Below are positions 8,483-54,897 of a DNA stretch of 64,000 nucleotides, in pieces; the stretch's first letter is position 1; each line of letters begins with the position of its first letter. The position numbers and the translations under genes are program-made. Origin of the DNA: Chitinophaga pinensis (GTDB lineage Bacteria; Bacteroidota; Bacteroidia; Chitinophagales; UBA10324). The stretch covers positions 1-64,000 of the forward strand of contig CAMDOA010000005.1 of the NCBI GenBank assembly GCA_945903305.1. Reading direction: 5' to 3'. The notes beneath the pieces were generated by a model. It saw only the letters and a program-made list of their open reading frames with translations, was not told the DNA's origin and ran no database searches.

Positions 8483-11101
8483 ATGGCTCGAAAATTATTT
8501 TATTTATTTTTATTTATACCGGCTATTTCCTTTTCACAAGGGCAGGGAAATATCTGGCACTTTGGAGATAATGCGGGAATAGATTTTAATTCAGGTACTG
8601 CCGTAGCCATTCAAGGGTTTGTAAATACCACAGAAGGTTGTGCTTCTATTTGTAACAGCGCAGGTGCATTATTATTTTCTACTGACGGAATTACAGTTTA
8701 TAATAATGTCGGAGGTGTACTTGCTTCCGGGTTAAACGGCGATCCATCTTCTTCACAGTCCGGAGTTATTGTTCCTTTCCCGGGAGCCATAGATAAATAT
8801 TACATTTTTACTGCAGATGCCACAACCGGTGCGGCCGGCATTTGTTATTCAGTTATTGATATGAATTTAAACGCCGGCTTAGGTGGAGCAGTTAGTATTA
8901 ATACGCAATTAATTACTCCTGCCTGCGAAAAAATAACTGCCATACGAAATTCAAATGGTACTGATTACTGGGTGGTGGTTCATGCTTTTCCCTCCGATGA
9001 GTTTTATGCTTATCCGGTTACAGCAGCTGGAGTAGGAACACCAATAGTAACTGCCATTGGATTACCTATTAATGGTTCGGCAAATACAATAGGTTATTTA
9101 AAAAGCTCTCCAAACGGGCAGATGTTGGCTGCCGGCAGATGCTTTGTTGCCAATGACCCTATTGAGTTATTTGATTTTGATGCCAGCACCGGAATACTGA
9201 GTAATTATATTCCTATTCCAAGTATTGGAAATGCTTATGGTATTTCTTTTTCTCCCGACAATTCAAAATTATATATCGGTTATAATGATTTAACCGGAAT
9301 AAACATCGAGCAATTTGATTTATCAATAACCAATTTTCAAAATTTTCCATACACAGTAATTCAGGGAACAGGCGTTTATCATTATGCACTTCAGTTAGCA
9401 CCTGATGGAAAAATTTATTGTTCAAAATATTCTGAAACTACGCTTGGAGTTATTAATAATCCAAATCAAGCGGGCATTGCATGCAACTACGATGATTTTG
9501 GTTTTACACTTTTCCCGGGAACTACTGCAATGGTAGGATTGCCAAATTTTATCGATAATTTTTTTACTCCGATTACCTGCAATGTTAATCTTGGAAACGA
9601 TACAATGTATTGCGGAAATTTTTCGCAAACATTAAATGCAGGCTCTTCCGATTCACTGATATTGTGGAGTAATGGAAGTACCAATCAAACCATTACTATT
9701 GATACTGCCGGAATCTATTGGGTGGTAAAAACACTGGCAGGAGGATGTGTGGCAACTGATACCATAATAATTACACAACATCCTGAAACCACAGTATGGT
9801 TAGGCGACAACGCAGTCGCATGCAATCCCGGCGATATAACATTGGATGCAGGCGCAGGCTTTGCTCTTTACCACTGGAGCAATAGTACTGACTTGCAAAC
9901 TTTAACTCCGCTAACAACAGGAAATTATTTTATTCAGGTTATGGATACCAATGGTTGTTTTGACATGGACACCATCAGTGTATTATTTCTTGCGCCATCA
10001 ATTAATATTGGAAATAACACTGCGATTTGTGTAAACGATTCATTGCAGTTGAATGCCGGCAGTGGTTTTGTTTCGTATGAATGGAGTACAGGCTCTGTTG
10101 ATTCATCTATCATGATTTATTCGGCCGGCACTTACTTTGTTTCAGTTAAGGACTCATTTGCATGCACAGCATACGACACCATTATAATTTCACTTTCTAC
10201 TCCGGCAATAAATATTGGAACCGACACTCTTTTTTGCAACGCATTTAATTATTCAATCACAGCAGGCAGCGGCTTTGCCAATTATCACTGGCAAAATAAC
10301 AGCAGCAATTCAACCTACATCATTACATCGGCTGGATTGTATAGTGTGACGGTGACTGATATTTATGGTTGCACAGCAGCAGATGCCATTACTGTTTTAA
10401 ATAATCTTCCTCAAGTAAGTATTGGAAACGATACTGTCATTTGTATTAATACATCAGCCACAATTACTGCCACCACAGGTTTCGATAATTATATGTGGAA
10501 CACTGGAAGTAGCGTTGAAAATATAGTTGCCGCAACAAGCGGAGTTTATAGTGTAACCGTTACCGACAGCGAAGGATGTACCACCGCTGATTATAAAAAT
10601 ATTTCAGTTAATAATCCTGCATTATTTATCGGCAACGATACCAGCACCTGCAATGGCAATGGAATTATGCTGGATGCCGGAAATTCGTTTGTCAATTATT
10701 TGTGGAGCAATAACTCCGGTGAGCAACTAATAATCACCAACGGCGCCGGAATATATTCGGTTACTGTTACTGATTTTTATGGATGCAATATATCAGATGA
10801 AGCAACTATAACTTATAGCAATTGCGTTGATATAATTGTTCCAACCGGATTTACACCCAATGGCGATGGACTCAATAATTTCTTCCACATTTTAAATGCT
10901 TCAGATTTTAAATCAGCCGAAATAAAAATTTATAATCGCTGGGGTCAGTTGCTATTTGAAAGCAATGATGCAAATGCCAGCTGGAACGGAAAATACAATG
11001 GCGAAGATTGCGAAGTGGGTGTTTATGTTTTTGTTATTTCAGGAAAAAATTATTTGGAGCTTGCTATTTTCAAAAATGGGAACATTACTTTGTTGAGGTA
11101 G
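8483..11101 (+). CDS. Secreted propeller-like protein with Ig-like repeats and CHU_C tail
   Basis: An 872-residue T9SS type B substrate. It has a signal peptide (LFYLFLFIPAISFSQG), then a domain at about 20-365 shared with the genes at 51.2 and 52.5 kb (NIWHFGDNAGIDFN, GYLKSSPNGQML, FSPDNSKLYIGYND, APDGKIYCSKY), which reads like a WD40/lactonase-style propeller. Residues 366-780 hold six copies of an Ig-like repeat, each opening with IGNDT and closing with VTDxxGC. The last 85 residues are the gliding-motility C-terminal domain (VPTGFTPNGDGLNN ... IYNRWGQLLFES). The ligand of the propeller is unknown. Confidence 0.87.
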   Translation: MARKLFYLFLFIPAISFSQGQGNIWHFGDNAGIDFNSGTAVAIQGFVNTTEGCASICNSAGALLFSTDGITVYNNVGGVLASGLNGDPSSSQSGVIVPFPGAIDKYYIFTADATTGAAGICYSVIDMNLNAGLGGAVSINTQLITPACEKITAIRNSNGTDYWVVVHAFPSDEFYAYPVTAAGVGTPIVTAIGLPINGSANTIGYLKSSPNGQMLAAGRCFVANDPIELFDFDASTGILSNYIPIPSIGNAYGISFSPDNSKLYIGYNDLTGINIEQFDLSITNFQNFPYTVIQGTGVYHYALQLAPDGKIYCSKYSETTLGVINNPNQAGIACNYDDFGFTLFPGTTAMVGLPNFIDNFFTPITCNVNLGNDTMYCGNFSQTLNAGSSDSLILWSNGSTNQTITIDTAGIYWVVKTLAGGCVATDTIIITQHPETTVWLGDNAVACNPGDITLDAGAGFALYHWSNSTDLQTLTPLTTGNYFIQVMDTNGCFDMDTISVLFLAPSINIGNNTAICVNDSLQLNAGSGFVSYEWSTGSVDSSIMIYSAGTYFVSVKDSFACTAYDTIIISLSTPAINIGTDTLFCNAFNYSITAGSGFANYHWQNNSSNSTYIITSAGLYSVTVTDIYGCTAADAITVLNNLPQVSIGNDTVICINTSATITATTGFDNYMWNTGSSVENIVAATSGVYSVTVTDSEGCTTADYKNISVNNPALFIGNDTSTCNGNGIMLDAGNSFVNYLWSNNSGEQLIITNGAGIYSVTVTDFYGCNISDEATITYSNCVDIIVPTGFTPNGDGLNNFFHILNASDFKSAEIKIYNRWGQLLFESNDANASWNGKYNGEDCEVGVYVFVISGKNYLELAIFKNGNITLLR

Positions 11102-40667: not shown

Positions 40668-43283
40668 ATGAACTTAAATCAATTCACAATCAAATCGCAG
40701 GAAGCTGTTCAGAAGGCGCAGGAAATAGCAACCGGTTTTCAGCAGCAGCAATTAGATACAGCTCATATTCTGAAAGGAATAATTGAAGTGGATGAAAATG
40801 TTACTCCGTTTCTGTTGAAGAAATTAGGTGTGAATGTTTCCTTACTTGAACAAAAGGCAGATGCCATTATTCAGAAGCAACCGAAAGTTACGGGCGGACA
40901 AATTTATTTATCTGGTGATGCCAATGCTGCTATTGCAAAAGCACAATCATTACTCAAAGAATTCAAAGATGAATTTGTATCCATCGAACATTTAATACTT
41001 GGATTGCTTTCAGGTAAGGATGAAACTGCACGGTTGATGAAAGAAAGCGGATTGAATGAGAAGGATTTAAAACTTGCGATAAAGGAATTAAGAAAAGGAA
41101 GTACAGTAAAAGACCAGAATGTTGAAGCCACTTACAATGCACTGAACAAGTATGCAAAAAATTTAAACGACTTAGCTCAAAGCGGAAAACTGGATCCTGT
41201 TATTGGTCGCGATGAAGAAATCCGAAGAGTGTTACACATTCTTTCGCGTCGCACAAAAAATAATCCTGTTCTTGTTGGTGAGCCAGGAGTTGGTAAAACA
41301 GCAATCGCTGAAGGCATCGCGCACAGAATTGTAAATGGCGATGTTCCTGAAAATTTAAAAAGTAAAATTATTTTTTCTCTCGATATGGGCGCGTTGATGG
41401 CAGGTGCAAAATATCGCGGCGAGTTTGAAGAACGGTTAAAAGCAGTGGTGCGCGAAGTGACTGAAAGCAACGGAGAAATAATATTATTCATTGATGAAAT
41501 TCATACGCTCATTGGAGCCGGTGCCGCAGAAGGTGCAATGGATGCCGCAAATATTTTAAAACCTGCGTTGGCGCGAGGTGAGTTAAGAACTGTTGGTGCA
41601 ACCACTTTGAATGAGTATCAGAAATATTTTGAAAAAGATAAGGCACTCGAACGCAGATTTCAGAAAGTAATAATTGATGAACCTAATGAAGAGGATGCTA
41701 TTTCCATTTTGCGTGGATTAAAGGAACGATATGAAACACATCATAAAGTTCGTATAAAAGATGAAGCCATTATTTCCGCTGTTGAACTTTCTAACCGTTA
41801 TATCAGCGATCGTTTTTTACCTGATAAGGCCATTGATTTAATTGATGAAGCTGCGGCAAAGTTGCGTTTGGAAATGGATTCACTCCCCGAAGAATTAGAT
41901 GAAATTGAAAGAAGAATTCGTCAGTTGGAAATTGAGCGAGAAGCCATCAAGCGCGAAAAAGATGTAAAGAAGGTGAAAGAACTGAGTGAAGAAATTGCCA
42001 ATCTATCTGAAGAACGAAATAATTTAAAAGCAAAATGGCAAGCCGAAAAAGATGTGGCCAATGCGGTGCAGGAAATTAAATCTGCTATTGAAAATTATAG
42101 GCTCGAAGCAGAACAGGCAGAGCGCGCCGGTGATTATGGTAAGGTGGCGGAAATCCGTTACGGAAAAATTCGTGACGAAGAATTGAAACTGAAAAAGGCG
42201 GAAGATGAAATTAAGAAATTGAATCAGGGCACCCGCATGCTGAAAGAAGAAGTGGATGCTGAAGACATTGCTTCCATCGTTTCGAAGTGGACCGGGATTC
42301 CGGTGACAAAAATGTTGCAGAGCGAAAGAGAAAAACTGTTGCACCTCGAAGTTGATTTGCATAAAAGGGTAGTAGGGCAGGAGGAAGCAATTACTGCAGT
42401 GAGTGATGCAATACGCAGAAGCCGCGCAGGATTGCAAGACCCGCGCAAACCAATAGGTTCATTTATTTTTTTGGGAACTACAGGAGTAGGCAAAACAGAA
42501 TTGGCAAAAGCATTGGCTGAAATGTTATTCAACGATGAAAGTGCTTTGACACGAATAGATATGAGTGAATACCAGGAACGACATTCTGTTTCTCGATTGA
42601 TTGGTGCACCTCCGGGTTATGTAGGTTATGATGAAGGCGGTCAATTAACCGAAGCAGTTCGCCGCAAACCTTACTCTGTTGTGTTGCTCGATGAAATTGA
42701 AAAAGCGCATCCCGATGTTTTTAATATTTTATTACAGGTGCTGGATGATGGAAGACTGACTGATAATAAAGGCAGAACAGTCAACTTCAAGAACACCATT
42801 ATCATTATGACCAGCAACATGGGTTCACATATTATTCAGGAAAATTTTGCGAAGATTAATGAGAAGAACAAGTATGGAATTCTGGAAACCACCAAAGTAG
42901 AAGTGATGGACTTGTTGCGCAAAACCATTCGCCCTGAATTTTTAAACCGCATAGATGATATCATCATGTTCACTCCTTTGATGAAAAATGAAATTGTTGG
43001 AATAGTGGAAATACAAGTGAAGCAATTGCAGGCGATGCTGATGAAAAACAATATCAAATTAAATATTTCTGATAAAGCAAAAAAGACACTTGGCGATTTA
43101 GGTTACGACCCGACTTTAGGTGCACGACCATTGAAGCGTGTGATACAAAAAGAACTGGTAAATGAGTTATCGAAAAAAATTCTTTCCGGCGAAGTACAAT
43201 CCGAATCAGTAATATGGGTGGATATTAATAAGGCAGGCGATTTGGTTTTCAGCAATGAAGCGAGTGTGATTTCGATGAATTAA
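40668..43283 (+). CDS. clpB: ClpB disaggregase
   Basis: An 871-residue AAA+ chaperone that pulls proteins out of aggregates together with DnaK. The order is: Clp N domain (1-150), AAA1 with [13 protein letters not shown] and [13 protein letters not shown], a coiled-coil middle domain at about 400-530 (typical of ClpB rather than ClpA or ClpC), AAA2 with [13 protein letters not shown] and [13 protein letters not shown], and a C-terminal oligomerisation domain ([15 protein letters not shown]). ATG 40668 ([17 protein letters not shown]) is the usual start; the track begins 14 codons earlier with unrelated residues. Its end overlaps the next gene by four bases. Confidence 0.97.
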
Positions 43284-44287
43284 ACGACTAACAAATTGCA
43301 CCCTCTAACATCACTGCTATCCATTCTGCCTGAAACAGAAAAACTTCCATCAGCATTTATTCTTCCCAAATCATCAGTAGCTATGAATGAGCAGGAGTAA
43401 ATGTTTGCCAGGTCAATAATATTTATGGCACCTGCATGAGTGAGCGAAAGAATTTCAAACGGGTCGTTTGGTTCGCGAATAAAAACTTTCATCCACGGAG
43501 GTGTAGAATAATTTCCATCAGTTTTTGAATAGGCTTGTGAAAGCAGTTCGGTCATTCCGTATTCTGAATAAATTGTTTTTACTCCGAATTTATTTTTCAG
43601 TTCTGCATGCACTTCTTCACGAATCATTTCTTTTTTCCGTCCCTTCATTCCACCGGTTTCCATAATCATTGTTTTCGAAAAATCGTGGGATGATTCGTTT
43701 GGAAAATCAAGCAAAGCGAAAGTCACTCCCAACAAAATATGTTTTTTATTTTCTGAATTCAATTGTTGAAGCAACTGAATTAATTCAGTTGTTGCATTCA
43801 AATAAAAACCAGAGCGGTCATCATTACTCTGTTCAATTAATTTCTTCGTCATGTAAATCAATGATGAATCGTTCCGTTCTAAGTAGGAGGGAAGCAAGGC
43901 GAGAAAAGTGAAATCTTCCGGTGAACCCAACGCAGATTTAAAATTGGTGATAAAAGATTTTTCATACAGTGAAAGGTCTTTAACATAATGACTGCTTGTT
44001 TCCAATCCGGTGGTGCCGCTGCTTTTAAAAATTGCTTCTGCTGTAAAATTTCCGGTTACCACTTCCTGTGTTTTAAAAAATTCAATAGGGAGAAAAGGAA
44101 TTTGTTGTAATGATTTTACATCGGTCACATTTATTTTCAGGTTTTTAATAAACTCTTTATAAATTTTATTGTGTTCGGCTTGCACCTGAAATATTTCCAA
44201 TGCCAGTTGTTCAAACTGAAGTTCATTCTCAATAGAAAAAATTCTTTTCTCAATATCTTTTTTGAACACCTGATTTATTTTCAACAA
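43280..44287 (-). CDS. LuxE/acyl-protein synthetase-like protein
   Basis: A 335-residue adenylate-forming-like protein. [15 protein letters not shown] is the phosphate-binding loop and [14 protein letters not shown] the second ATP motif; [11 protein letters not shown] and the final [11 protein letters not shown] fit the LuxE branch, which activates fatty acids and passes them to a protein cysteine or reductase. No luciferase or fatty acid reductase gene is near, so the Lux pathway itself is not implied. It is convergent with clpB. Confidence 0.82.
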
Positions 44288-44431: not shown

Positions 44432-45424
44432 TTAAAAGTGCGGACAAAAAACTTTGTTTTTCTTCAGTGATGGAATGGTACCTATGTACTGAATGGCAAT
44501 TTCGGGTCCGCCCTGCGCATGACTTACTTTGGCGAGTTTAGAATAATTCAGATCGTAAGAAAATGTTAAGGAAAATTGATCAATATCCATTCGAACCACA
44601 AAAATCACAGCATCTTTCCACCGGTTTAATGCACCGAAATAAACCGATTTCTCCTGGCCTTTTCGTTTATCCATTGCCACTTTTCCAAAGGCGCCGAATA
44701 CTAATTCCTGATGTGGCCCCTGCACACTGTAAGCAACTTTAGGATAAATGGCTGCCATGGAAGCGATGGGTAATGTTGCACCAAAACTTCCAACATATTT
44801 TCTTGGAACTGCTGAAGTATTATCATTCATAAAAGTTTGCACAGGGTTATTAATGTGCGAAATATTGAAACCGAAATTCACATTTGAATATTTTGTTGGC
44901 ATATAATTGTATTCCACTCCGGCATTTACATCCACATATCCTGCTGTGTTGTAAGCAAAATTTTCGGTAGTGTTTCCACCTTCAAAATTTTCGTCGAAGC
45001 TGAGATAAGTATAATCGAGAAAGCTATTGATGTATCCTGCCTGAATTCCAAAGCCTAAATAATTTCTTCCCCATCTGTCGAGTGATTTATTGTAGGCAAC
45101 TGATGCTTCAAACAGGTTGGTTGTAAAATGCGAATCGCCGGCACGGTCAGAAAATGTGACTAAGCCAATTCCGAATAAATCTTTTTTATTAAATCCGGTA
45201 GGTATGCTGAAATCTAAAGAACCGCTGATAGTTTGATAAGGTACAGTAACACTTTTCCATTGATTTCTGTAAATCGCAGTCATACGATAATTACCATTGA
45301 AGAAACCGGTCTTCGCCGGATTCATGTATAAGGGTGCAGCATAAAACTGCGAGAAGTGAATATCCTGAGCTTGGGTGCCGAACACCGAGAAGCTGAGAAG
45401 CAAGACTATGTAAATCTTTTTCAT
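44432..45424 (-). CDS. PorP/SprF-family T9SS outer-membrane protein
   Basis: A 330-residue beta-barrel protein. After the signal peptide (VLLLSFSVFGTQAQ) comes the family opening DIHFSQFYAAPLYMNPAKTG, then paired strands such as YRMTAIYRNQWKSV, and a closing segment FSLTFSYDLNYSKL. SprF-like proteins are needed to secrete or attach their cognate type B substrate and are usually encoded next to it. Here the 1860-residue CHU_C protein ends 41 bases upstream, so the two form a likely pair. The C-terminus FCPHF is unusual in having a lone cysteine. Confidence 0.92.
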   Translation of the reverse strand: MKKIYIVLLLSFSVFGTQAQDIHFSQFYAAPLYMNPAKTGFFNGNYRMTAIYRNQWKSVTVPYQTISGSLDFSIPTGFNKKDLFGIGLVTFSDRAGDSHFTTNLFEASVAYNKSLDRWGRNYLGFGIQAGYINSFLDYTYLSFDENFEGGNTTENFAYNTAGYVDVNAGVEYNYMPTKYSNVNFGFNISHINNPVQTFMNDNTSAVPRKYVGSFGATLPIASMAAIYPKVAYSVQGPHQELVFGAFGKVAMDKRKGQEKSVYFGALNRWKDAVIFVVRMDIDQFSLTFSYDLNYSKLAKVSHAQGGPEIAIQYIGTIPSLKKNKVFCPHF

Positions 45425-45465: not shown

Positions 45466-48400
45466 CTATCTAATTACCGTAATGTTTCCTTGTTTGTTAA
45501 TATTTTGACCACCGGAGCAAAGTGCCTGTAAATAGTACACATACACACCCGGCGGCAGTTTTATTCCATTATATGTTCCATCCCAACCATCGTTTAAATC
45601 TGATGTTTCCCAAATTAATTGACCCCATCGATTATATATTTTGAAATAATTCAATTCTTTTATACCGATGGCACGCACCCTGAATTTTTCATTTTTATTA
45701 TCTCCGTTAGGTGTAAACGCATTGGGTACAAATAGTATATCATTCGGGCACGCCACTTTTATAATCATTTCATCTTCGCTCTTACATCCATCTTGCGAAA
45801 TAGTTGTGAGCGTATAGGTTGTATTGACAGTTGCAGTAACCAATGGAGTTAAACAATCAGTACAACTTAATCCATCAGCAGGGCTCCAGCTATAAGTTGC
45901 AAATGGAGTTGCTGTTCCGTTTAATTGAATTTCTGTTCCTGAAGGAATTTCAAAATCCTGACCTGCATTGCAATACGGCGATGGATTTACGATAACTACA
46001 ATACTCAATGTATCCACTTCACAAATTCCATCCGATACAATTACAGTATAAGTTGTAGTTTGAATTGGTGATGCAAATGGATTTGGTGAAAACGGATTAT
46101 CTAAACTATTCGATGGTGACCATAGATATTGATTGCCACCTGAAACCCCTAGCTGAAGAACACCACCAATGCAAATGGTTCCACCGTTGGCGGCAATGGC
46201 ATTTAATTGTGGGAGCACAAAAACGGATACAGAATCCTGTGCACTGCAACCATTCATATCGGTTCCTATAACAGTATAAACTGTTAACGAATCAGGCGAG
46301 GCATTGACAATAGAACCTGTTGAAGAATTTAATGTGAGAGAAGGACTCCATAAATAATTTGTTGCACCTGTGGCACTCATTAATGTACTTGCCTGAAAAC
46401 AAATTTGAACATCAGCACCGGCAACAACAATTGGTAAAGGATTTACTATAACAAGAACCTCATCGGTTGCTGTGCATCCATTAATATCAGTTACATGTAA
46501 ATTATAAGTTGTTGTAGAAATTGGATTTGCTGTTGGATTAAAAACTGCTGATGAATCGAAAGCTGATGAAGGCGACCAATTAAAAATTATTCCTCCCGCT
46601 CCATTTAATTGCACCGCATTTCCAATACAAATGGAAGTATCATTCCCGGCATTGGCAATGGCAGATGGAAATAAATTAATAGAAACGGTGGCCGTGTTCG
46701 AACATCCATTAATATCAATTCCGGTTACAGAATAATTTGTTGGTGTTAGTGCATTACAAATTGGATTTGCAATGCCGCCATTGTTCAGATTATTTAACGG
46801 AGACCATGTGTAGGTGCTTGCACCGCTTGCCTGTAGTTGAATATTTTGTCCGGGGCAAACTGTTGAATCGGGAACAGCAACCACAATTGGAAGTGAATTG
46901 ACATTTACAATTACAATATCGGTAGCTATACATCCATTTATATCTGTTACAGTTAATGAGTAAGTAGTATTTACTGTTGGTGATGCATTCGGATTGAAAA
47001 TTGTTGAGTCGCTTAATCCGATTGATGGCGACCAGTTGAAGTTTATTCCTCCACTTGCATTAAGTGTGGTTATTGCATTTAAACAAATTGTTGCATCGGG
47101 TCCGGCAGTTGCAATTGGATTATTTACTACGGTAATACTATTTGTAATTGTATCAATGCATCCATTTATTGATTGAACAATTAATGTGGTTATATAAATT
47201 CCGGAAGCAGAATAGGTATGAGTCGGAGATTGAATAGTAGAAAAATTTAATGCACCACTTGCAGCATCTCCGAAATTCCAGTTCCATAAAGTTATAGTTC
47301 CTGTAGGCTGAGAAAGATCAGTGAATGCAACCAACTGATTCGGACAAACTGTTGAATCATCCATGGAGAATGCAGCAGTTGGTGAAGCAAAAACATAAAC
47401 CGTATCAATGTACTGACCGGTGCATCCAACACTGGTTATAACATCAAGTGTTACAGCATAAATTCCGGGCGATGAATAATTGTGTGAAGGATTTTGTAGC
47501 GATGAAATATTATTTGCACCACTTACCACATCACCAAAATTCCAACTCCATGATGAAATGGAAACAAACGAAGTTGTTAAATCAGAAAACGAAATCAGGC
47601 CACTGTCGCAAATAGGATTTGGGTTTATTCCAAAACTTACATCAGGATTGCCAACCACAACGGTATCAAGAGCAATAGCAACATTGCATCCCTGACCATC
47701 ACTTATAATTACTTCAGGATAAAAAATTCCTGATGAAGTATAGGTATAACAAATTGTATCGTTTGAATTGGTGATAACAGTTCCATCTCCAAAATTCCAA
47801 TCGAAACTTACCGCGTTATTGGTAAATGCCTGAAAGCATGCATTCAATGGAATACAACCTGCACCTATAATGGAAGCAGTGATTCCTGCTGGTCCGCTGA
47901 TTGAAATGTAATTGTTAAACAGAATCATATTACTGCAACCATTTGAATCGGTTACAATTAAACTCACATCATAAGTTCCGGCAATGTTATAAGTATGAAA
48001 TGGATGTTGAAGTGATGAAGTATTTCCATCACCAAAATTCCAGAGATAAGTTGTGGCGCTATCAATGTTTGTTGAAAGATTGCTGAACTGAACTGCAAGC
48101 GGCGGACATGATGAATTGGTGGTGTCGGCAGTAAAATTTGCAGCAGGCATACTCACGGTTACAGTAACAGTATCAATTGTGGTTGATACACAACCGGAAG
48201 TATCAGATGCAGTTAATGTTACATTATAAATTCCGTTTGCCGAATAATAATGACAAGGTGTTGCGGCAAAAGAAATATTCCCATCACCGAAATCCCAAAC
48301 AAAATTCAGATTGCTGTTTCCGAAAGTGTTATTAATAAAGCATGCAGGATCGCCCAGGCAAATATTGGTAGCAACAGCATTGAAATCTATAACCGGAGAT

Positions 48401-51048
48401 AAGGCATTGACAAAATTCATTTTTTTCAACGAATCAATACAGCCATGATTATCAGTAATAGAAAGTGTAACAGAATACGAACCCGATTGGTTATAAATAT
48501 GAAACGGATTTGGCTGATTGGATGAGTTTAAATTAACAGAAGCTGGGTCACCGAAATTCCAGTTCCAACTTACCGGAAAAGAGTTATTGGAAGTTGAGCT
48601 ATCGGCAAACTGAACATTAAGTGGAGTGCAGCCGCTAAGAGGTGTACCACTGAAGTTTATATAAGTGCCATAAACAGTTATATAATCTTGCATAAACAAT
48701 GTATCAGAACACAGATTAACATCTGTCGAAATTAATTGGACCGAATATTTGCCGGAATTAATTAAGGTTGGACAAGGAAAAAAAGCAGATGAAGCAAATA
48801 CAGTATTACCAACGGTATCGGTTATGAGCCATTGGTAAGAACTGGCATCAACTGAAGTATTATTTAAACAAAAACTAAATGGTTTGCATCCACTGGTCGG
48901 CGCATTAAATCCGGCTTGTACATTTCTTATTTGTACTGTTTTAATATTTTGATCGGTACATCCGGTTGCCAGATAAGTTACTGTTAGTTTTATCTGATAA
49001 CTGCCACTTGCGGAATAAGTAATAGTTATAACACTGTCGGTAAGTGATGATGCTGTAGCTCCTGTAACCTGCCAGCTGAATAAATCGGCATTAATGGAAC
49101 TGCCTGCATGAAGTGTTAAAGTATAAGGGTTGTTACAATCTTTTTCAATTGTGAATTTGGCAACCGGCGGAAGAATATGAATGGCGCTATCCATTATTAA
49201 GGTATCGCAGCATCCGTTATTACATACAATTAAAATTACATCGGCCCATCCCGTATCACTATAATTGAAAAATGGATTTGCATTTGTTGATTGTGTGTTA
49301 AATGGCAATCCACCGAAATCCCAGAAGTAATTGGTGTTGGCATTTACTCCGGTGCTGGTATTAGTGAATTGAATATTCATTCCCGCACATGCCGGGTTGG
49401 GTGATACTGTGAAACTGGCGGTTGGAATTTCTCCAACACAAACTATATCATTCATTAAAAAAGTATCAGTACATCCTTGAGCATTAATTATTATTAACCG
49501 AACATCATAACAACCCGGATTAACAAATGTGTGCGATGGATTTTGCTGATTGCTTTGTATTGAGTTTGAATTTCCCGTATCGCCAAAATTCCATTTCCAT
49601 ATTGTTGGAGTACCTGTTGAAGTAGTGCTTGTAAATTGAACAGTGAGTGGTGCGCATCCCGAATTGGGTGTGGCAACAAATGCGGCAACCGGGCAATCAA
49701 TATTTACTAAGTTTAATACAGTATGAGTATCACTGCATCCCGCGGCATTCGTAACGGTTAATGTGGTTGAATAATTTCCGCAACTGTTGTAAACAATATT
49801 CGGCGGATTATTGGTTGACCATGTCGATGGTATTCCACCCGGAAAACTCCATGAATAACTTAATCCATTTCCCCCTGAAAGATTATTGTAATTAACAGTC
49901 AGCGGTGGTGCACAAGTGGGAGTATTTCCGGTTTGCGAAAAATTTGAGTTTGGTGTTGGTGCAATAACAACAGTTGTACACTTCTGTGCAGTGCATCCGT
50001 TGCTGAAACTGATATTTAAACAAACCTGGTAACTGCCCGGCGTATTAAATGTGAATGAAGCATTTTGTCCACTTGCCGTTGCCGGAACCGCATTTGGATT
50101 GGTTGTCCAGTTCCAACTTATAGCACCATTGTTTTGAGATGAAACATTAATAGTTTGTGGAGCGCATCCTTGTGTGGCTGATATTGAAAACTGCGCTTGC
50201 AGATTTCCAACATTGATGTAATTATTTTTTATCAAAGTATCCTGACAACCATTCGCATCAGTTACAATTAACTGACTGCTGAATTGCCCCGATGAATTGT
50301 ATGTTACACTTTGAGTAGCGGAAGTAGATGAAGCCGGTGTTCCGCCCGGAAAACTCCATTGATAAGAATAAGGTGCTGTACCCCCGGTTACATTTGAATT
50401 ATATGTTGTTGTAAATGGAGAACCACAACCATTGAGAGGTGAAGCTGTGTAAGTAATTGTAGGTTTTGTAGTAACACAAACTGCAGCGGCGGTGGTTATG
50501 TTATCAGTGCAGCCGAATGAATTGGTGATGATGAGTGTAATTGTTTTACAACCTTGTGTGGTGTAAGTATGATTTTCAACTGAGTCGGTTCCTGTACTTC
50601 CATCACCAAAATCCCATTGATATGAAGTGATAGTTCCGCTTCCTGCTGAACTTGTGCTTGTTAATGTTGAAAGGAGTGGAGCGCAACCTGCCGCGCCTGT
50701 GGTTGTAAAACTTACAACAGGTTTGCAATGAATTATTACCGGTAAAATTTTTATCTCCTGTAATCCGTTTCCATCAGTTACCGTTAGCGTTACACTGAAA
50801 GTGCCGCAAGCAGAATAAGTTGTTGATGGATTTGTAAGAATGCTGTTCACACCTGCATTCACTCCAAAATTCCATTGATAAGTTAATGGTGGAACTCCGG
50901 TACTTAAATTAGTGAAACCTGCTACAGCAGGATTACAGACCGGATTGGGTAAATTGATAGAGAAGTCAGCAATTGGCTGCGCAAAAAGGCTGAATGTCTT
51001 TAGAAAAAGTGAAAAAAATAGAGTTATAACTATGTAAAGGCGGTACAT
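45466..51048 (-). CDS. Giant PKD-repeat surface protein with CHU_C tail
   Basis: This 1860-residue protein is the largest in the window. A signal peptide (LFFSLFLKTFSLFAQ) is followed by about 15 PKD-type domains to near residue 1280 (YQWDFGDGSTG, FVWDFGDGNIS, WNWNFGDAASG), some degenerate where FGDG is lost. Six Ig-like repeats of another type follow (FNWSPSIGLSDSTIFNPNAS and relatives, ending TDINGC). The last 85 residues are the gliding-motility C-terminal domain (VPNAFTPNGDNKNEKF ... IYNRWGQLIWETS), the type B T9SS signal. It is probably a filamentous adhesin, exported with the PorP/SprF protein encoded next. Confidence 0.93.
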   Translation of the reverse strand: MYRLYIVITLFFSLFLKTFSLFAQPIADFSINLPNPVCNPAVAGFTNLSTGVPPLTYQWNFGVNAGVNSILTNPSTTYSACGTFSVTLTVTDGNGLQEIKILPVIIHCKPVVSFTTTGAAGCAPLLSTLTSTSSAGSGTITSYQWDFGDGSTGTDSVENHTYTTQGCKTITLIITNSFGCTDNITTAAAVCVTTKPTITYTASPLNGCGSPFTTTYNSNVTGGTAPYSYQWSFPGGTPASSTSATQSVTYNSSGQFSSQLIVTDANGCQDTLIKNNYINVGNLQAQFSISATQGCAPQTINVSSQNNGAISWNWTTNPNAVPATASGQNASFTFNTPGSYQVCLNISFSNGCTAQKCTTVVIAPTPNSNFSQTGNTPTCAPPLTVNYNNLSGGNGLSYSWSFPGGIPSTWSTNNPPNIVYNSCGNYSTTLTVTNAAGCSDTHTVLNLVNIDCPVAAFVATPNSGCAPLTVQFTSTTSTGTPTIWKWNFGDTGNSNSIQSNQQNPSHTFVNPGCYDVRLIIINAQGCTDTFLMNDIVCVGEIPTASFTVSPNPACAGMNIQFTNTSTGVNANTNYFWDFGGLPFNTQSTNANPFFNYSDTGWADVILIVCNNGCCDTLIMDSAIHILPPVAKFTIEKDCNNPYTLTLHAGSSINADLFSWQVTGATASSLTDSVITITYSASGSYQIKLTVTYLATGCTDQNIKTVQIRNVQAGFNAPTSGCKPFSFCLNNTSVDASSYQWLITDTVGNTVFASSAFFPCPTLINSGKYSVQLISTDVNLCSDTLFMQDYITVYGTYINFSGTPLSGCTPLNVQFADSSTSNNSFPVSWNWNFGDPASVNLNSSNQPNPFHIYNQSGSYSVTLSITDNHGCIDSLKKMNFVNALSPVIDFNAVATNICLGDPACFINNTFGNSNLNFVWDFGDGNISFAATPCHYYSANGIYNVTLTASDTSGCVSTTIDTVTVTVSMPAANFTADTTNSSCPPLAVQFSNLSTNIDSATTYLWNFGDGNTSSLQHPFHTYNIAGTYDVSLIVTDSNGCSNMILFNNYISISGPAGITASIIGAGCIPLNACFQAFTNNAVSFDWNFGDGTVITNSNDTICYTYTSSGIFYPEVIISDGQGCNVAIALDTVVVGNPDVSFGINPNPICDSGLISFSDLTTSFVSISSWSWNFGDVVSGANNISSLQNPSHNYSSPGIYAVTLDVITSVGCTGQYIDTVYVFASPTAAFSMDDSTVCPNQLVAFTDLSQPTGTITLWNWNFGDAASGALNFSTIQSPTHTYSASGIYITTLIVQSINGCIDTITNSITVVNNPIATAGPDATICLNAITTLNASGGINFNWSPSIGLSDSTIFNPNASPTVNTTYSLTVTDINGCIATDIVIVNVNSLPIVVAVPDSTVCPGQNIQLQASGASTYTWSPLNNLNNGGIANPICNALTPTNYSVTGIDINGCSNTATVSINLFPSAIANAGNDTSICIGNAVQLNGAGGIIFNWSPSSAFDSSAVFNPTANPISTTTYNLHVTDINGCTATDEVLVIVNPLPIVVAGADVQICFQASTLMSATGATNYLWSPSLTLNSSTGSIVNASPDSLTVYTVIGTDMNGCSAQDSVSVFVLPQLNAIAANGGTICIGGVLQLGVSGGNQYLWSPSNSLDNPFSPNPFASPIQTTTYTVIVSDGICEVDTLSIVVIVNPSPYCNAGQDFEIPSGTEIQLNGTATPFATYSWSPADGLSCTDCLTPLVTATVNTTYTLTTISQDGCKSEDEMIIKVACPNDILFVPNAFTPNGDNKNEKFRVRAIGIKELNYFKIYNRWGQLIWETSDLNDGWDGTYNGIKLPPGVYVYYLQALCSGGQNINKQGNITVIR

Positions 51049-51222: not shown

Positions 51223-52356
51223 CTATGGTCGATTAAAATAACTGGTTATATAATTGGGTAAACCCAACTGTGGTTCGCCGCCATTCAAATAAATTCCCTG
51301 CTCAATATATCCGCAACCAATTCCTTTAATATTCGGATATTGAATGCATCCTAAATAATCACTGTTCTTTGCCACATATATTTTACCATTAATTGCATTT
51401 TGTATTGCCCCCATTTTTTTATCCATTGATTGCGCAACCAATACCGCCGATTGCATTATTGCTGCAGTAGTAGTGAGCGTTACATCCCATTGATATATTT
51501 CATTGGTGACATAAAAACTCAGGTATAATAATTTACTGTTCGGGCTGAACTCGCAACCGTAAGCCAGTTTACTTTGCGGAGTGAAAATCAATTTGTATTC
51601 ACTCAACACACCGGTTTCGTTATTGAAATCATACAACTCGGCAAAATTGTTTTCATAAATAACTGAACACAATCGTTTACCATCAGGAGAAAATTTCATG
51701 TAGCCGATTGCATTTCCATCAGTGGATATTCCACCTTGATAAACACTCCCGATTCTTGTGATGACTGCATTTTTTGCAACACCTTCCTTAGTTACTAAGT
51801 AGCAATAAAAATTTCCGGTATTCCAACCGTGCGCCATTACCCAAATGTCTTTTCCGTTTTTGTGTTTTACTGCGGTTAATTTTTCAGCAGCATTGGGTAA
51901 AAGCAAAACATCTCTGCCAACTACATCACCCAACCCGCTTTCCTTCGTCATATCTATTGTGTAATAACTCACACCGTTGTTTGGTGGATTGGCGTAAGCA
52001 CCGGCATCGGAAGTAAACAAATAAATAATATTTGGGTTGCCGGGATTGGGTATTGCGATTGCTGATTGCGAGGAAGAGTCGTGACCTTTTAAAGTTTTAC
52101 CATGCGGCATAATTTTATGATACTTGTTCCACACCTGCATTCCATTTGTATAGAACTGCAGCCATCCACCGCTGTTGCACATAGTTACGCAACCTTCTTT
52201 CACATTCATTTCACTTACTGTAACAGGCACAGGATACGAATACGAGAAATCAATTCCGGCTTCTTTTCCAAAAAACCAGATGGATGATTCTTTTTGTGCG
52301 AATGAGAAATTGGATATTGAAAGTACGGTGAGAAGAAGTAAAAACTTTTTTGTCAT
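51223..52356 (-). CDS. Propeller-domain secreted protein without sorting tail
   Basis: A 377-residue protein with a signal peptide (LLLLTVLSISNFSFAQ) and one domain that aligns along its length with the N-terminal parts of the genes at 8.5 and 52.5 kb: SSIWFFGKEAGIDF, the SSSQSAIAIPNPG turn, EKLTAVKHKNGKDIW, GYMKFSPDGKRL, and the closing GLPNYITSYFNRP. It stops exactly where the others pass into repeats, so it lacks Ig-like repeats and any T9SS tail and is expected to stay in the periplasm or leave by another route. No function is known to me. Confidence 0.85.
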   Translation of the reverse strand: MTKKFLLLLTVLSISNFSFAQKESSIWFFGKEAGIDFSYSYPVPVTVSEMNVKEGCVTMCNSGGWLQFYTNGMQVWNKYHKIMPHGKTLKGHDSSSQSAIAIPNPGNPNIIYLFTSDAGAYANPPNNGVSYYTIDMTKESGLGDVVGRDVLLLPNAAEKLTAVKHKNGKDIWVMAHGWNTGNFYCYLVTKEGVAKNAVITRIGSVYQGGISTDGNAIGYMKFSPDGKRLCSVIYENNFAELYDFNNETGVLSEYKLIFTPQSKLAYGCEFSPNSKLLYLSFYVTNEIYQWDVTLTTTAAIMQSAVLVAQSMDKKMGAIQNAINGKIYVAKNSDYLGCIQYPNIKGIGCGYIEQGIYLNGGEPQLGLPNYITSYFNRP

Positions 52357-52491
52357 GCGCTAAAATTAAATTCAAGATAAGCGATTGTACGAATCGTTTT
52401 CCTAATAGAAATGTGGATTGTTCGTGAAATAAATTTTGTGTTAAAATATATTTACTTATAACAGATAACTGTAAACTAATAACTTTTTCAC

Positions 52492-54897
52492 TCAGCGAAT
52501 GAGTGTGAAATTTCCTTTGTAAAAATAACTTTCACCTTTGTCAGTTGCCACTGCAAAGTAAACATACACGCCCATTGAACAGGGCAGGTCGAAAAATGTG
52601 CCATCCCATCCATCGTGCGGTAAATCAGTTTCGTAAACCATTTGGCCCCATCGGTTATAAATTCGAAGCCATACTTTATCAAATCCAAAATTGAGGTAGT
52701 CAAAAAAATCATTAGTGCCATCACTGTTTGGCGAAAAGGCATTTGGGAAATATAATATTGGTTCAATTCCGTCATTTACAAAAATCACAACTGTATCAGT
52801 GGCAAGACAACCAAAACCATTATCAACTGTAATAATATAAGTAGTTGTTACGATGGGTGAAGCAAGTGGTGTTAGCACCGTTGAATCATTGAGCCAGCTA
52901 CCGGGTTGCCACAAAAACGAAAGGGCATCCGAGGTGGCATCAATCAAAACAGAATTGCCAAGAATAATTGTGAGATCCGGACCAGCATCAACTAATGGAA
53001 GTGAAAGAATATTCACAGTAACAGATACTGTATCGGATTCGCATCCGGGAAGTGAAACGATTACAGAGTAGGTGGTAACTTGTGTTGGTGAAGCAATAGG
53101 ATTTGGAATGGTAACTGAAGAAAGTGTTACATCGGCAAACCATATATATCCTGAACCACCCGAAGCAAGTAATTGGGCAGATTGCCCCGGACACACTGAT
53201 GTGTCATTTGAAGTGGATGCAACCACACCACTTGAAATTGTTACAACAATTGTATCCTCATCATGACAAGCAGGACCATCATCAATTGAAACAATATAGG
53301 TAGTGGTAACAGCAGGGCTTGCTTTTGGCGATGCGCAATTAGTACAACTTAAACCGGTTGAAGGAGTCCATTGATAATTAGTTCCGTATTGAAAAGAATT
53401 GGTGAGTTGAACGCTATCGCCATTGCAAATAGTAATATCATTTCCATAATCCACCTGAAAACTATCGGCTAAATCAACGATAATGTTATAGGTAAAGTAG
53501 GTACATCCGGCTGTGATGGTCATGGATACATTAAAACTCCCTGATGTAGTGAACAGATGGGTCGGATTAAAAAGTGTGGAAGTGTTATTTGCACCACTTG
53601 CGGGGTCGTCAAAATTCCAGACTACTGTAACCGGCAGTGGAATAACAGTATCAAGTAAAGTGGCAGTATAAGTTCCGCCGCATCCATCATAAGTTAATTT
53701 GAATTCGGTTGGTGTATTAAACAGTTCCACAAAATTCGGAAGGCCGAAAGTACTCGTGTGCTGCCCCTGCGAATTTCCCATTTGCAATCCATTGGAAACA
53801 AAGCCACAAGCTGCACCTGCATTATTCGGATTATTAATTACATCTAAATAAGCACTTCCGGGTTTTGCACCATAAATTTTTCCATTAGGTGCCAATTGCA
53901 ACGCACCATAATATTGAATAGCTGCCGAACTGATTTGTGTTCGCGAAGCTAAAATTGTTGCGCTGATTCCCGAACTTAAATCATATTGAAAAACTTCGCT
54001 CGGAAATACAGTACCATCAATTGCTGACACATATAATTTAGAATTATCGGGTGAAAAGGCGATGCCATACAAACCTGAAAATCCTGAATAATCATTCCAT
54101 GTGGTGTCGGTAATATTATTATTAATTACTCCGGTTGTGTAATTGAAATCAAATATTTCAACTGTTTGTACATTGGCATAACAGGCAAGCGCTAATTTTT
54201 TTCCATCAGGTGAAATTTTCATGTAACCGATTGCTTCAAAACCATCTCCGCCTAATGTATCTTCATGCATGATACCTGCCGTGCTTACTACAGGAAATGC
54301 TGATAAACCAGCTGAGGTCAACAGATATGAATAAAATTCGTCGGAATTGAATTTGTGAACCACTACCCAATAGTCAACTCCATTGCAATGAAGTGTGGCG
54401 GTTAGCTTTTCGCACACAGATGAAAGTACTAACTGATTTTTAACTGTTACATCTCCAAGTCCTCCATTCAAAGTCATGTCAACTATATTACTTTCAAAAT
54501 TTCCATTACAGGTATCTAATCCTGCCCATCCGCCAACTGTGAAAATATAGAATTGTGTTGAGCTTCCTGGTTTAGGAATAACAAGTGCTGATTGTGTGCT
54601 TGAATAACATCCCCCTAATCCGGTGCCATTCGGCATTATTATATTATTCTTATTCCAAACATTTACTCCATCTGTATAAAAAAGTAATTGTCCGGTTTGA
54701 GGGTCTGAGTATCCGCTGCAGCCTTCCTGTGTATTCAATTGGCCAGTACCGATTGCTGATAAAGTTCCATTAAAATTCAATCCGGCTGTATTGCCAAAAT
54801 ACCAATGATTTGCCTGCTTTTGACCATTTGATATTAATGGAAAAAGAAAGCTAATGAATATTACAATCAGAAATCTGTGGTGTATCATTCTTATCAA
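52492..54897 (-). CDS. Secreted propeller-like protein with PKD, Ig-like repeats and CHU_C tail
   Basis: An 801-residue T9SS type B substrate. The signal peptide (LIVIFISFLFPLISNGQ) leads into the shared propeller-like domain at about 28-400 (NHWYFGNTAGLNFN, GYMKISPDGKKL, FSPDNSKLYVSAIDG, APNGKIYGAKPG, FGLPNFVELFNTP). Then comes one PKD domain (VVWNFDDPASGANN), three Ig-like repeats (YQWTPSTGLSCTNC and relatives) and the CHU_C domain at about 715-801 (FPNAFSPNSDGTNDFF ... IYNRWGQMVYET). It is next to the tail-less paralogue, 136 bases upstream of it. Confidence 0.88.
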   Translation of the reverse strand: MIRMIHHRFLIVIFISFLFPLISNGQKQANHWYFGNTAGLNFNGTLSAIGTGQLNTQEGCSGYSDPQTGQLLFYTDGVNVWNKNNIIMPNGTGLGGCYSSTQSALVIPKPGSSTQFYIFTVGGWAGLDTCNGNFESNIVDMTLNGGLGDVTVKNQLVLSSVCEKLTATLHCNGVDYWVVVHKFNSDEFYSYLLTSAGLSAFPVVSTAGIMHEDTLGGDGFEAIGYMKISPDGKKLALACYANVQTVEIFDFNYTTGVINNNITDTTWNDYSGFSGLYGIAFSPDNSKLYVSAIDGTVFPSEVFQYDLSSGISATILASRTQISSAAIQYYGALQLAPNGKIYGAKPGSAYLDVINNPNNAGAACGFVSNGLQMGNSQGQHTSTFGLPNFVELFNTPTEFKLTYDGCGGTYTATLLDTVIPLPVTVVWNFDDPASGANNTSTLFNPTHLFTTSGSFNVSMTITAGCTYFTYNIIVDLADSFQVDYGNDITICNGDSVQLTNSFQYGTNYQWTPSTGLSCTNCASPKASPAVTTTYIVSIDDGPACHDEDTIVVTISSGVVASTSNDTSVCPGQSAQLLASGGSGYIWFADVTLSSVTIPNPIASPTQVTTYSVIVSLPGCESDTVSVTVNILSLPLVDAGPDLTIILGNSVLIDATSDALSFLWQPGSWLNDSTVLTPLASPIVTTTYIITVDNGFGCLATDTVVIFVNDGIEPILYFPNAFSPNSDGTNDFFDYLNFGFDKVWLRIYNRWGQMVYETDLPHDGWDGTFFDLPCSMGVYVYFAVATDKGESYFYKGNFTLIR

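Follow-up and report, generated by a model that had tools for sequence, protein, structure and literature searches.

A tail-less member of an unnamed beta-propeller family in Bacteroidota and its possible place in the periplasm

Two neighbouring genes in the window (the whole stretch of 64,000 nucleotides analysed here) raise the question of where a protein works when it consists of the N-terminal domain of its exported paralogue and carries none of the tail by which that paralogue would be sorted to the surface. The shorter gene (51223-52356, reverse strand) encodes a protein of 377 aa made up of a putative Sec signal peptide (52297-52356; ..SNFSFAQ|KESS, without a lipobox cysteine) and one propeller domain; its hydrophobic N-terminus, ending AQ|K, looks signal-peptide-like by eye, and the cleavage site was likewise read by eye. 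Upstream on the same strand, with 135 bases between the two, lies the full-length paralogue of 801 aa (52492-54897), in which a signal peptide is followed by the propeller domain (53716-54876; profile match over residues 8-394), weak PKD/Ig repeats, and a type B sorting domain (CHU_C, 52513-52749; PF13585, E 9.9e-15; TIGR04131, E 2e-11) of the type IX secretion system (T9SS). A second tailed paralogue of 872 aa (8483-11101, forward strand) combines the propeller (8495-9568; profile match over residues 5-362) with weak repeats and a type B tail. Downstream of the tail-less gene, and also on the reverse strand, are a giant PKD-repeat type B T9SS protein of 1860 aa (45466-51048; 14 matches to PF18911, plus PF13585 and TIGR04131) and a shuttle of the PorP/SprF family (44432-45424; PF11751, E 8.9e-35) with the C-terminus ..FCPHF, whose final-segment cysteine is retained in all four genomes read. 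Next after the shuttle gene comes a protein of 335 aa (43280-44287) that looks LuxE/acyl-synthetase-like by eye and has weak AMP-binding matches only.

The original prediction had these three paralogues share an N-terminal domain, and this was borne out by the ORF calls and by the alignments: the domain spans about 365 residues, and the copies in the long proteins are 38-40% identical to the short one over its whole length. A search of the window's own genome returned the domain matches with E-values of 2e-68 and 2e-61 and counted ten copies. CHU_C/TIGR04131 was found by Pfam and NCBIfam in both long proteins, as foreseen, while the 377 aa protein matched none of TIGR04131, TIGR04183, PF13585, and PF18962 in the same libraries; it does end at the domain border, its stop lying two residues beyond the end of the domain model. 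The motifs quoted for the family hold only approximately, in that GLPNFI is exact in the 872 aa protein alone (the short protein has GLPNYI and its neighbour GLPNFV) and SSSQSA in the short protein alone. The Ig-like repeats proposed for the two long proteins leave a weak PKD/Ig signal that stays below the Pfam cut-off. The congener copies of the tail-less protein similarly have no tail by our tail profiles. The mature tail-less protein has an odd number of cysteines (seven), in identical positions in all six congeners; one of them may be free or paired with another protein.

As to what the domain is, no Pfam or NCBIfam model matched it in the window proteins at cut-off, and no PDB sequence matched it significantly. 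Thirty diverse relatives gave no match to NCBIfam and hit four propeller models of Pfam, each with a single member. A named family with a known ligand, which would have refuted the original prediction, did not emerge from the libraries searched, and we found no paper naming the domain in a literature search. The guess of a propeller also proved sound: an AlphaFold2 model built from 17 sequences is all beta (mean pLDDT 83, pTM 0.85), with the radial four-stranded blades that define a beta-propeller as its predicted fold, and the recognised matches among the top 50 of Foldseek against the PDB are propellers or propeller-containing proteins of many kinds, none a specific relative. It thus shares its fold class with the WD40, YVTN, and lactonase propellers, but falls below the cut-off of every such family in sequence and reaches a TM-score of about 0.5 at best. 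An enzymatic or ligand-sensing role in the periplasm, perhaps a lactonase-like one, comes to mind here, since 6-phosphogluconolactonases and one periplasmic gluconolactonase are among the many propellers matched by Foldseek and since Lactonase (PF10282, E 1e-7) and SGL (PF08450) are each matched at E < 1e-3 by one of the 30 members. The 377 aa protein itself matches neither model above the Pfam cut-off, however, and all kinds of propellers score alike in the structural search. Moreover, the nine strictly invariant positions across the 30 members are mostly W, F, G, or Y and form no obvious catalytic set, though two are Glu, and no linked transducer gene was seen; we therefore consider an enzyme or sensor unlikely. 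What is new is an unnamed propeller family with four modes of delivery, and not a new system.

Could the short gene simply be a truncated, decaying copy of a tailed one? Its end at the domain border and its position beside a tailed paralogue would fit, but its history refutes this, and we practically dismiss the idea. Tail-less orthologues are present in seven other genomes: all five congeners sampled (90-93% identity), a member of another genus (G010; 73%), and a member of a third (G007; 52%, in two pieces at contig ends). In a tree whose bootstrap had not fully settled, the eight tail-less copies from three genera form one clade with support of 100/100, and the sister of this clade is not the one formed by the tailed neighbours. 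Among the congeners the tail-less gene has a dN of 0.054 and a dN/dS of 0.035; in the tailed neighbour this domain gives 0.166 and 0.100, and the transaldolase gene used for comparison gives 0.028 and 0.035. Synonymous changes are near saturation, which makes dN the safer measure. The tail-less protein is thus the product of a real, constrained gene under strong purifying selection. The isolated truncation that would have spoken against the original prediction was not found: the short copy is conserved in relatives and usually adjoins a tailed copy.

This pairing brings up a second explanation, namely that the tail-less protein binds the product of the tailed gene just upstream, as its partner or inhibitor, and is secreted with it through the outer membrane. 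The two genes sit side by side in the same orientation, about 30-140 bases apart, and the order from tailed to tail-less is retained in seven genomes of three genera (G000, G001, G002, G004, G005, G010, and G007; G000 is the window's own genome). A further tail-less copy, in G011, adjoins a type A tailed sister. Against this stands the congener G003, where the tail-less gene (90% identical to the window copy) directly adjoins the transaldolase gene with no tailed gene beside it, and whose assembly, 100% complete by its listing, holds no orthologue of the tail of that gene elsewhere (best other match 41%). The tailed and tail-less proteins also differ greatly in evolutionary rate and are not sisters on the tree, and a second group of tail-less copies, described below, has no tailed paralogue nearby in the three loci inspected. 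Co-secretion accordingly seems improbable to us. Nor is there support for the idea that a tail-less copy depends on docking to the full-length protein next to it: G003, the second group, and the fusions of the propeller to an OmpA peptidoglycan anchor (see below), which suggest periplasmic work in its own right, make docking possible in the window's clade but not required.

The giant type B gene and the PorP/SprF shuttle gene lie downstream of the tail-less gene in G000-G004. In G005 the pair is not beside it and the shuttle is on another contig, so the linkage looks looser, although close relatives of the shuttle are present in eight of eight genomes. The 801 aa and 1860 aa proteins have tails that are 45% identical. 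In Flavobacterium johnsoniae three orphan type B tails that are more than 44% identical are served by one shuttle (PMC12618676); by this analogy, the two proteins may possibly share one PorP here. In three congeners (L050:7107-7811, L051:7633-8340, and L052:9134-9844) the stop of the tail-less gene overlaps the start (TAATG) of a frame for a membrane-like protein of about 235 aa. We considered whether this overlapping frame was a lost tail, but it is unrelated to one; it has no Pfam match and was not seen in G000, G001, or G002.

How common are tail-less copies? We classed 86 distinct copies of the domain with home-made tail profiles, in a sample biased toward relatives of the window: 9 were cut at contig ends, 63 carried a T9SS tail, 3 were fused to OmpA, 2 could not be assigned clearly, and 9 had no tail. 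The last comprise the eight orthologues of the window gene and the G011 copy, which is best read as an independent loss of the tail. NCBIfam assigned 36 of 66 C-termini to type B and 30 to type A, with overlap. Short frames also turned up in G009, in G002 (C116 and C152), and elsewhere, but these had been cut by contig ends and were rejected as tail-less genes; an open frame of 24,510 residues around a domain copy in G187 proved to be an artefact of N-masking. A wider sample of the phylum (396 genomes, with at most five candidates scored per genome) added a second tail-less group in another family, f29, which we take to be the Hymenobacteraceae, putatively, from its gene content. Here a match was found in 117 of 121 genomes, mostly in frames of 365-450 aa, and meaB is close to the gene in about 20 of the 23 loci read. 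With no Pfam or NCBIfam family at cut-off, it amounts to a conserved putative envelope protein. An AU test (p 0.35) speaks neither for nor against a common origin of the two tail-less groups. SprA (SprA_N) is encoded in all 17 genomes tested, which indicates that the T9SS is present.

A pointer to a place of work comes from a third family, f18, in which three proteins (in G238, G294, and G354) join the propeller to a regulatory-like stretch and an OmpA domain (PF00691, E about 1e-18). In the one tested (G354, L082), 188 residues of the C-terminal half align at 46% identity with a PorE/CHU_0125-like protein encoded in the window's own genome, and in the two that were scanned NF053607 and NF052230 match this half only. 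PorE is a periplasmic lipoprotein of the outer membrane that likely bridges peptidoglycan and the complex of PorP with type B proteins, and its propeller or its TPR domain is the proposed contact of PorP (PMC9143113); deletion of CHU_0125 harms the integrity of the outer membrane (PMC5891637). Given that PorE is reported to be periplasmic, the window-type propeller in f18 would, judging from these sequences, occupy the place of PorE's periplasmic front half in that lineage. The window protein resembles PorE/CHU_0125 (TPR, PD40 propeller, regulatory domain, and OmpA) in being a predicted envelope-exported beta-propeller, but has neither TPR nor OmpA domain (the latter by Pfam; it was found only in the f18 fusions), nor a lipobox for a lipid anchor, and its propeller is not detectably of the same family: hhalign gave a probability of 20% for the 30-member profile against two PorE-like proteins of its own genome, these two sequences being the whole PorE side of the comparison. 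With T9SS cargo of type B and type A (TIGR04131 and TIGR04183) it has the N-terminal propeller and, putatively, the signal peptide in common, but it is without any sorting domain.

Putting these lines together, our preferred reading, which we hold at a little short of even chances, is that 51223-52356 encodes a Sec-exported, soluble periplasmic propeller that serves T9SS or outer-membrane surface complexes as a scaffold for binding proteins. The 377 aa single-domain protein would be exported by Sec and, lacking a T9SS sorting tail, a lipid anchor, and a peptidoglycan anchor, would stay in the periplasm; we infer both residence and scaffold role, the former from the missing tail and anchors. 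It would probably bind proteins on the inner side of the outer membrane, as proposed for the PorE propeller, with PorP/SprF shuttles, a PorE-like anchor, or the associated type B cargo as candidate contacts. The tail-less clade, its low dN/dS, the f29 group, the OmpA-anchored propeller, the published work on PorE, and the presence of the T9SS in the genomes tested favour this reading. Against it, about 63 of the 77 copies with a readable C-terminus belong to T9SS cargo, which puts the domain to work at the surface as well; only in G000-G004 does the giant/PorP pair adjoin the tail-less gene; in the loci read, no gene next to an f29 copy was recognised as part of the T9SS; and there is the missing family relation to the PorE propeller. 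The preponderance of tailed relatives, which act outside the cell, might even suggest that the tail-less protein reaches the surface or the medium by a route that needs no recognised C-terminal tail. We give this little credence, as no alternative signal was seen and no other secretion genes were recognised near the gene, and as the PorE-like fusions place the domain in the periplasm. That the soluble tail-less form is a near-universal periplasmic part of the assembly of the outer membrane or of surface proteins, in two or more lineages of Bacteroidota and with the T9SS-tailed copies as derived, surface-exported forms, appears rather doubtful to us. In any case, a single domain that is delivered with a type A tail, a type B tail, a PorE-like peptidoglycan anchor, or none offers a way to study how tasks are split between periplasm and surface in Bacteroidota.

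Some further copies and neighbours deserve mention. A protein of 1,837 aa (L088, G360:C35) carries two propeller copies in tandem and adjoins another copy. In the window's own genome, a type A tailed copy is split over two ORFs (L017:5559-7088, G000:C54) and may be a pseudogene or an assembly error. The same genome encodes a PKD-like protein of 7,777 residues with a type B T9SS-like end (G000:C16:20846-44179; L138 and L139), whose frame contains no N and therefore is not a masking artefact; a PorP/SprF relative lies just upstream of it.
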